Shown: piece after piece, positions 15,679-39,045 of the stretch | Numbering within the stretch: position 1 is the stretch's first letter | Layout: each line of letters begins with the position of its first letter | Origin: Methanobrevibacter sp. | GTDB taxonomy: Archaea > Methanobacteriota > Methanobacteria > Methanobacteriales > Methanobacteriaceae | Assembly (NCBI GenBank): GCA_024689425.1 | Contig: JAILDN010000110.1 | Coordinates: 1 to 40,576 of the forward strand | Reading direction: 5' to 3' | Length of the DNA: 40,576 nt | Position numbers and translations under genes: made by a program | The notes under the pieces: generated by a model | What the model saw: only the letters and a program-made list of their open reading frames with translations | Databases searched by the model: none | Told to the model about the DNA's origin: nothing

Positions 15679-15747
15679 ATACTTTACTTATGATTGAGGA
15701 CAATTTTTATAAGTAGAAACAATATTTAGAAGTAAGCTCAACAAGCT

Positions 15748-15755
15748 TTATATAG
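15748..15755 (+). promoter_or_regulatory. TATA box of the candidate RNA gene
   Basis: TTATATAG lies about 25-30 bases before the first hairpin of the candidate RNA, the spacing expected for an archaeal TATA box and transcription start. The nearest upstream plus-strand gene stops at 15678. Confidence 0.5.
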
Positions 15756-15777
15756 ATAAATACTCATAAAAATTAAT

Positions 15778-15991
15778 TGACATCGCAATTGATGTCTAAT
15801 CATATACGAAAATTCAACATAAAACCCTAATGTGTAAAAACATTAGAAAAAGGGTGAGATTAAAAAAGTAAATAGGTTCATATGTGAATCATCAAAATTG
15901 GCTAAAATAAGGTGGGAGGTTCAAACATGCTTTCCATTAACACATCACCAGCATACATTGATGTATGTAATCTCACCCTACAACTCTTTTT
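15778..15991 (+). ncRNA. candidate structured RNA, possibly encoding a 24-residue peptide
   Basis: This lies in the only long gap of the window (15679-16121). Visible structure: hairpin GACATC/GATGTC at 15779-15796; hairpin CTAATG/CATTAG at 15827-15846; a perfect 12-bp long-range stem, AGGGTGAGATTA at 15851-15862 with TAATCTCACCCT at 15968-15979; inside it GGTTCA/TGAATC at 15875-15890, a GGTG/CACC stem at 15911-15914/15946-15949, and CATACA-TTGA-TGTATG at 15952-15967 abutting the long stem. A T-run follows at 15987-15991. An upstream ACCCT (15824-15828) could instead pair with the AGGGT that opens the 12-bp stem. It does not match SRP RNA, RNase P RNA or tRNA as far as I can see. The role is unknown. 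Confidence 0.5.
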
Positions 15992-16001
15992 ATTAAAATA
16001 A
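15927..16001 (+). CDS. possible 24-residue small ORF inside the candidate RNA
   Basis: An ATG at 15927 opens a 24-codon frame (begins MLSINTSPAYIDVCN, ends LFLLK) closed by TAA. It is preceded by GGGAGGT at 15914-15920, one of the strongest Shine-Dalgarno sequences in the window, with 6 bases of spacing. The peptide is hydrophobic and carries one Cys. In the folded RNA the GGAGG can pair with CTTTCC at 15930-15935, hiding ribosome site and start codon. Against it: the frame is very short and contains one strand of the long stem. It could be real, or the GGAGG could be purely structural. Confidence 0.3.
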   Translation: MLSINTSPAYIDVCNLTLQLFLLK

Positions 16002-38591: not shown

Positions 38592-38619
38592 TGTCTTGAC
38601 CTAAAAAAATAGAAGAAAT

Positions 38620-38889
38620 TTATTCTTCGTCATCGTCTTCAACATAAATTTCTTTTTTTACATCTGCTTTTGCATCAACGACAATATCTTCCGCATTTTC
38701 TCTCATATCCTGGAAACATTCTTCAGCATCTCTTTTAGCTGACAATACTGCAGCCATTCCTTTAGTACATGAGTCTTTCACAGTTTCGGATTCCAATAGT
38801 TTTTTACCTATAATCGCCGTAGCGATTCCACCTGCAAAAATCAATGCATGCTTATGTCTAATAGCTTTGTCTATATATTTATTACTCAT
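38620..38889 (-). CDS. small DUF6110-like protein linked to the P-type ATPase
   Basis: The 89-residue protein has a basic N-terminus with HKHA, one hydrophobic helix (about 14-30, LIFAGGIATAIIGKKLL), one Cys in the middle (DSCTKG), a helical stretch with ECFQD, and an acidic tail VEDDDEE. I recall this form as DUF6110, a family often next to such ATPases; the name is from memory. GGGAG precedes the ATG and it is transcribed just ahead of the ATPase, so it may be a partner, chaperone or regulator of that pump. The histidines near the start and the acidic tail could bind metal; this is inference. Confidence 0.7.
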   Translation of the reverse strand: MSNKYIDKAIRHKHALIFAGGIATAIIGKKLLESETVKDSCTKGMAAVLSAKRDAEECFQDMRENAEDIVVDAKADVKKEIYVEDDDEE

Positions 38890-39045
38890 CTTATTATCTC
38901 CCGTTATTAATTAAAAAAATCATTGAATGTATAATTCAATATGTAATTATATTATTTTTATTACATATAAAGTTTAGGCATACCTAAAACAAAAAGTATA
39001 TAACAAATTAAGTTTAACATTTTTTACATCATTAAGGTGAAAATA

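Follow-up and report, generated by a model that had tools for sequence, protein, structure and literature searches.

We analysed a 40,576-nt stretch of DNA (the window), which is contig C110 of a 1.75-Mb, 94% complete Methanobrevibacter genome. One intergenic region of the window holds a very probable RNA gene (Table 1). Its left-hand neighbours are aroA, which lies on the - strand and encodes EPSP synthase, and mac, which lies on the + strand and is maltose-O-acetyltransferase-like; to its right lies valS, which is convergent on the - strand. There is no + strand gene between the RNA region and valS, and the RNA does not occupy the 5' region of any same-strand gene, where a riboswitch or leader would be found. 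With valS convergent and nothing following on the + strand, we agree with the preliminary description that this is a free-standing RNA rather than a normal leader. The TATA box, the 12-bp stem, at least three hairpins enclosed by it and the T-run are all present as described there, and GGGAGGT (15914-15920) and the 24-codon ORF (15927-16001) exist as sequence. Calling the region the only long gene gap was inexact, as the ORF list shows a second ORF-free gap of similar length at 38592-39036.

Table 1. Features of the RNA locus and of related repeat arrays. Positions refer to the window unless a genome and contig are named.
Feature	Position	Strand	Evidence or remarks
Three 19-bp tandem repeats	15696-15714, 15715-15733, 15734-15752	+	Presumed transcription-regulator binding sites
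TATA box AAGCTTTATATAG, TTTATATA (TTTAAATA in several homologues)	15747-15754	+	Sequence; homologues
Presumed RNA transcript	15773-15991	+	Ends predicted from TATA spacing and T-run; fold z = -5.7; 11 syntenic homologues by covariance models R1/R2
Helix P1, 5' end hairpin	15779-15784 with 15791-15796	+	100% of cells paired; 3/6 pairs changed on both sides
Conserved unpaired linker CAUAUACGAAAAUUCAACA	15801-15819	+	Alignments; core AUUCAAC, AUUCAGC in two copies
Helix P2	15827-15833 with 15840-15846	+	4/9 pairs changed on both sides
Helix P3 (long stem), enclosing P4-P6	15851-15862 with 15968-15979	+	8/14 pairs compensatory
Helix P4	15882-15886 with 15941-15945; extension 15875-15876 with 15948-15949	+	Consensus
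Helix P5, including GGGAGGT	15911-15920 with 15929-15938	+	99% of cells paired; 4/10 pairs changed on both sides
24-codon ORF, judged not a gene	15927-16001	+	Start, frame and length vary
Conserved motif AACACAUCACC	15939-15949	+	Core CACAUCA in 11/11
Helix P6	15952-15958 with 15961-15967	+	Paired in 89% of cells; truncated or absent in G013, G020 and G063
T-run 3' of P3, presumed termination region	15987-15991	+	T-rich but variable among homologues
Repeat arrays	Window 15696-15752; G041:C20:56555-56622; G014:C1:548547-548614; L312, L320, L292, L317		

The perfect 12-bp stem of P3 is the longest within positions 15748-16001, and its length was reached by none of 300 dinucleotide shuffles, in which the longest stem averaged 7.9 bp and never exceeded 11. 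Folding of positions 15778-15995 on the + strand gave a minimum free energy (MFE) of -55.2 kcal/mol, compared with -33.3 +/- 3.9 for shuffled sequences (z = -5.7; 0/200 as good), while the fold of the - strand was much weaker (z = -2.3). Homologues from other genomes gave z-scores of -7.8 (G051), -7.8 (G013) and -6.2 (G020).

These homologues were gathered in several ways. DNA BLAST of 40 relatives returned three, and further ones came from loci beside the neighbouring acetyltransferase gene; covariance models were then built from one homologue (R1) and from ten (R2). Searches with R1 and R2 placed the RNA in 11 of 67 genomes of the same genus, every copy adjoining the 3' end of valS, and the source genome has a single copy. 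We inspected the region 3' of valS in almost every other genome and saw no copy there, and DNA BLAST of 16 genomes from other genera detected no homologue. As far as we searched, its distribution thus appears restricted to a lineage within Methanobrevibacter. Named carrier records are Methanobrevibacter RGIG3316, RGIG2411 and RUG12835 and M. millerae SIG13. When a tree was built from valS, ten of the carriers came out as a single clade (support 0.99); the eleventh, G013, groups elsewhere. Since G013 sits apart and several non-carriers retain the aroA/mac neighbours, the RNA is either old and repeatedly lost, or was gained twice, or was transferred.

A functional RNA is supported by compensatory change, which the preliminary description had proposed to look for in the valS-flanking region of relatives. 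In an alignment of the 11 sequences, seven helices comprise 54 pairs, and 94.3% of the sequence-pair cells are standard pairs; when the partners were slid by 1-3 columns, only 32-44% paired. Both sides had changed in 29 of the 54 pairs, the long stem included, and in 42 cells, compared with 8.3 pairs and 10.6 cells in shuffles, and none of 500 shuffles matched the alignment on any of five measures. The most diverged copy, G072, is poorly aligned in P4-P6, and its cells there carry little weight. Because this alignment was fitted to the structure, we added an alignment-independent comparison of the two closest homologues, G051 and G053. They differ at 7 positions in 203 nt; pairing stays intact at all four of the differences that fall in stems, and a single P3 pair (G-C to A-U) accounts for two of these four, one on each side. 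In the far more diverged G013, other complementary sequences substitute for parts of P2 and P3; in P2, for example, CUAAUG/CAUUAG is replaced by GUUGAUGA/UCAUCAGC. Paired mutations that keep the stems across 11 genomes make a working RNA gene very probable, with a regulator of gene expression the most likely reading of its role.

Among the central helices, P4 is the least certain because the MFE structure of the window sequence has a local hairpin in its place. Its consensus pairing is nonetheless 98% of cells over five pairs and 91% over the two pairs of the extension; its partners differ in G013 and G072. Two short motifs persist even in the most diverged copies, although no conserved partner sustains them: AUUCAAC, which separates P1 from P2, and CACAUCAC, which follows P5. 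CACAUCA is partly paired within P4 in most copies, and CACAUCA(C) is kept in G013 and G072 despite the loss there of its P4 partner AUGUG. Nine copies could form a pseudoknot between AUUC-A-ACAU and AUGUGAAU, two of them by way of a G-U pair; because it is absent from G013 and broken in G072, we did not adopt it.

No Rfam family accounts for this RNA. At curated thresholds Rfam 15 left the region unmatched, its sole match being a tRNA-Cys elsewhere, in line with the earlier judgement that the RNA resembles none of SRP RNA, RNase P RNA and tRNA, and permissive scans of the region returned only chance-level matches. For box C/D and H/ACA guide RNAs, the comparison covered Rfam, with no match, and an inspection by eye, in which we saw no CUGA box. 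Viral pattern matches were judged not to be homologues. We conclude that the region is almost certainly a real gene for a structured RNA of about 205-220 nt that had not been catalogued before.

The gene also appears to have a promoter of its own, as the preliminary description held: the TATA box is conserved and its distance from P1, measured by script, is 31-32 nt in 9 of the 11 homologues, a count that leaves out G014, where the pattern misfired, and G053, whose contig ends there. In archaeal promoters, a TATA box at this position would put the RNA start a few nucleotides before P1. A TATA box at constant spacing, together with a convergent valS and no gene downstream, is the arrangement expected of an RNA gene transcribed from its own promoter.

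The 19-bp tandem repeats reach into this promoter, the third being degenerate and overlapping the TATA box. They are conserved in the alignment and equally spaced in the homologues, with units in the window too diverged for the repeat finder. A two-unit pattern allowing at most two mismatches was found more often than its reversed control in the source genome (22 vs 7), G051 (36 vs 2), G044 (26 vs 6) and G041 (31 vs 13), with a small excess or none in G010 and G013. Across Methanobrevibacter genomes, arrays of 2-4 units with a consensus of about GRACAATTYTTANGAGTSA stand ahead of TATA-like boxes and precede unrelated, often uncharacterised genes, among them those for a candidate-defence protein, a DUF2264 protein and orphan proteins. 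A stricter weight-matrix scan for two-unit arrays, which covered two genomes in part, picked out the RNA promoters and, beyond these, a single array in G014, so strong arrays may be few in each genome. From their shared sequence, the repeat-bearing promoters suggest a common regulator with a previously undescribed regulon. We also noted two such repeats at about position 4366 of contig C80 of the source genome (L232, L002), before a gene that by eye looks RhuM-like and has a stop codon within it. Near position 33198 of contig C1 in G044 (L319), the 5' region of a gene for DHBP synthase (riboflavin synthesis) has repeat-like units and what by eye resembles an FMN-riboswitch sequence.

Two further ideas in the preliminary description gained no support from comparison with the homologues. 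One was a strong ribosome site hidden in the structure, whose product, the 24-codon ORF, would make this a coding or dual-function RNA. The spacing of GGGAGGT and the ATG is good, and an MLFTNTSPHT-like start stays open in close relatives. However, GGGAGGT is a strand of P5 and becomes GUGAAAG, GUGAGAG, GUGGAAU or AUGAGG elsewhere, varying with its partner so that the stem is preserved. The ORF itself is defective in 5 of the 11 homologues: the start codon is missing in place in G009, G063 and G072, G013 stops after 3 codons and G020 is frameshifted. Its lengths range from 3 to 60 codons, and the start codon, frame and peptide are not conserved as they would be in a dual-function sRNA, which makes a coding role very improbable. 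The other idea was a two-state switch in which ACCCT (15824-15828) competes for AGGGT in the long stem. In the window AUUCAACAU is an alternative partner for AUGUGAAU, and P4 has a competitor in a local hairpin, as might be expected of a riboswitch or cis-regulatory leader. Against this, the strand has no downstream gene to control, ACCCT, part of which belongs to P2, is replaced in almost every homologue by GUCU, AUCU, CUCU or the like, and AUGUGAAU is missing in G013 and altered in G072; a switch of this kind is therefore equally hard to credit. Because P5 covaries and neither the ORF nor ACCCT is conserved, we set both ideas aside.

We favor instead a structured RNA with its own TATA promoter and a regulator bound at the 19-bp repeats, which would act in trans on mRNAs (probability roughly 0.6). 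Action in trans is the default because the strand has no downstream gene. The RNA would be transcribed from its own promoter, with a putative regulator on the tandem repeats. P1, P2, P3 and the enclosed helices would then display the motifs AUUCAAC and CACAUCAC, which would pair with one or more target mRNAs. The sequence CACAUCACC resembles the 3' end of 16S rRNA (AUCACCUCC) and may therefore pair with Shine-Dalgarno sequences; it could mask those of the GGUGAU type. Target prediction covered 741 genes of the source genome (G000) and 991 of G014, a fraction of each genome, and their 279 orthologue pairs, a minority of the gene set. In the start regions of these pairs neither motif produced better duplexes than permuted motifs, and no signal came from the segments tried, namely the linker, CACAUCAC and the P5 loop; with this coverage, some targets may have escaped the prediction. 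The segment UAGGCUCAUGUGAAUCAUUAA gave an apparent target signal, which we discounted: it holds CAU-type complements of start codons, which permutation destroys. Exact complements of the motifs in carrier genomes, among those inspected, were mostly coding-like, apart from a repeated stretch 3' of adhesin-like genes. The stretch, which is non-coding, conserved and about 150-200 nt long, contains TGTTGRGTTTTGG and occurs in three carrier genomes (L282, L283, L290), in two of them downstream of genes for adhesin-like proteins.

The short invariant motifs between helices would fit a base-pairing regulator and a protein-bound RNA alike. A structured RNA that acts by binding protein, as a scaffold, a decoy or a component of an RNP, rather than by pairing with mRNA, could explain the elaborate seven-helix fold with its covariation, and a protein might bind at the invariant unpaired motifs; the absence of target enrichment in duplex prediction points the same way. 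No known protein-binding family in Rfam matches, however, and the only recurrent linked protein gene is the convergent valS, which non-carriers have too, so we regard this explanation as rather unlikely. Still less does the locus look like what is left of a DNA element, mobile or palindromic. Such an origin would suit the long inverted repeat and the isolated occurrence in G013, but the element is single-copy in the genome, we found no phage or plasmid relative, the promoter is conserved and folding is strand-biased, which together leave this origin with next to no credibility.

Returning to the reading of a trans-acting regulator, the closest working analogy is sRNA162 of Methanosarcina mazei. 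According to the report describing it (PMC3510493), an unstructured single-stranded linker of sRNA162 pairs with mRNA and masks the ribosome-binding site, and sRNA162 additionally acts on a cis-encoded mRNA. Judged by that description, both are small RNAs of methanoarchaea, and our RNA has comparable settings for its AUUCAAC linker and for CACAUCACC, which is anti-Shine-Dalgarno-like. The likeness is one of description, with no sequence relation claimed, and the two organisms belong to different archaeal orders. Nor does our RNA have a counterpart to the cis-encoded mRNA of that description, and our target prediction was null. We give about even odds that the RNA is a trans-acting base-pairing regulator. 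The same general kind, that of intergenic regulatory RNA genes, includes sRNA154 of M. mazei and further intergenic sRNAs of archaea (reviewed in PMC5867862); the likeness we draw is one of kind, not of sequence or structure. In PMC2864571, comparative genomics recognised candidate structured RNAs by covariation ahead of any function, as is the case here. The present RNA differs from those candidates in having no Rfam family and in being limited to Methanobrevibacter as far as we searched.

Our search of the literature found no well-supported structured RNA outside the housekeeping classes in Methanobrevibacter, and to our knowledge few are established in archaea as a whole. It is conceivable, if doubtful, that the RNA represents a new archaeal class, an RNP or a multi-target regulator in rumen methanogens that would be controlled together with the regulon of the 19-bp repeats. 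Its repeat-controlled promoter points to an undescribed regulator in Methanobrevibacter. Members of this genus are major producers of methane in the rumen, and the carriers include a described species, M. millerae, so that the function of the RNA is open to testing.
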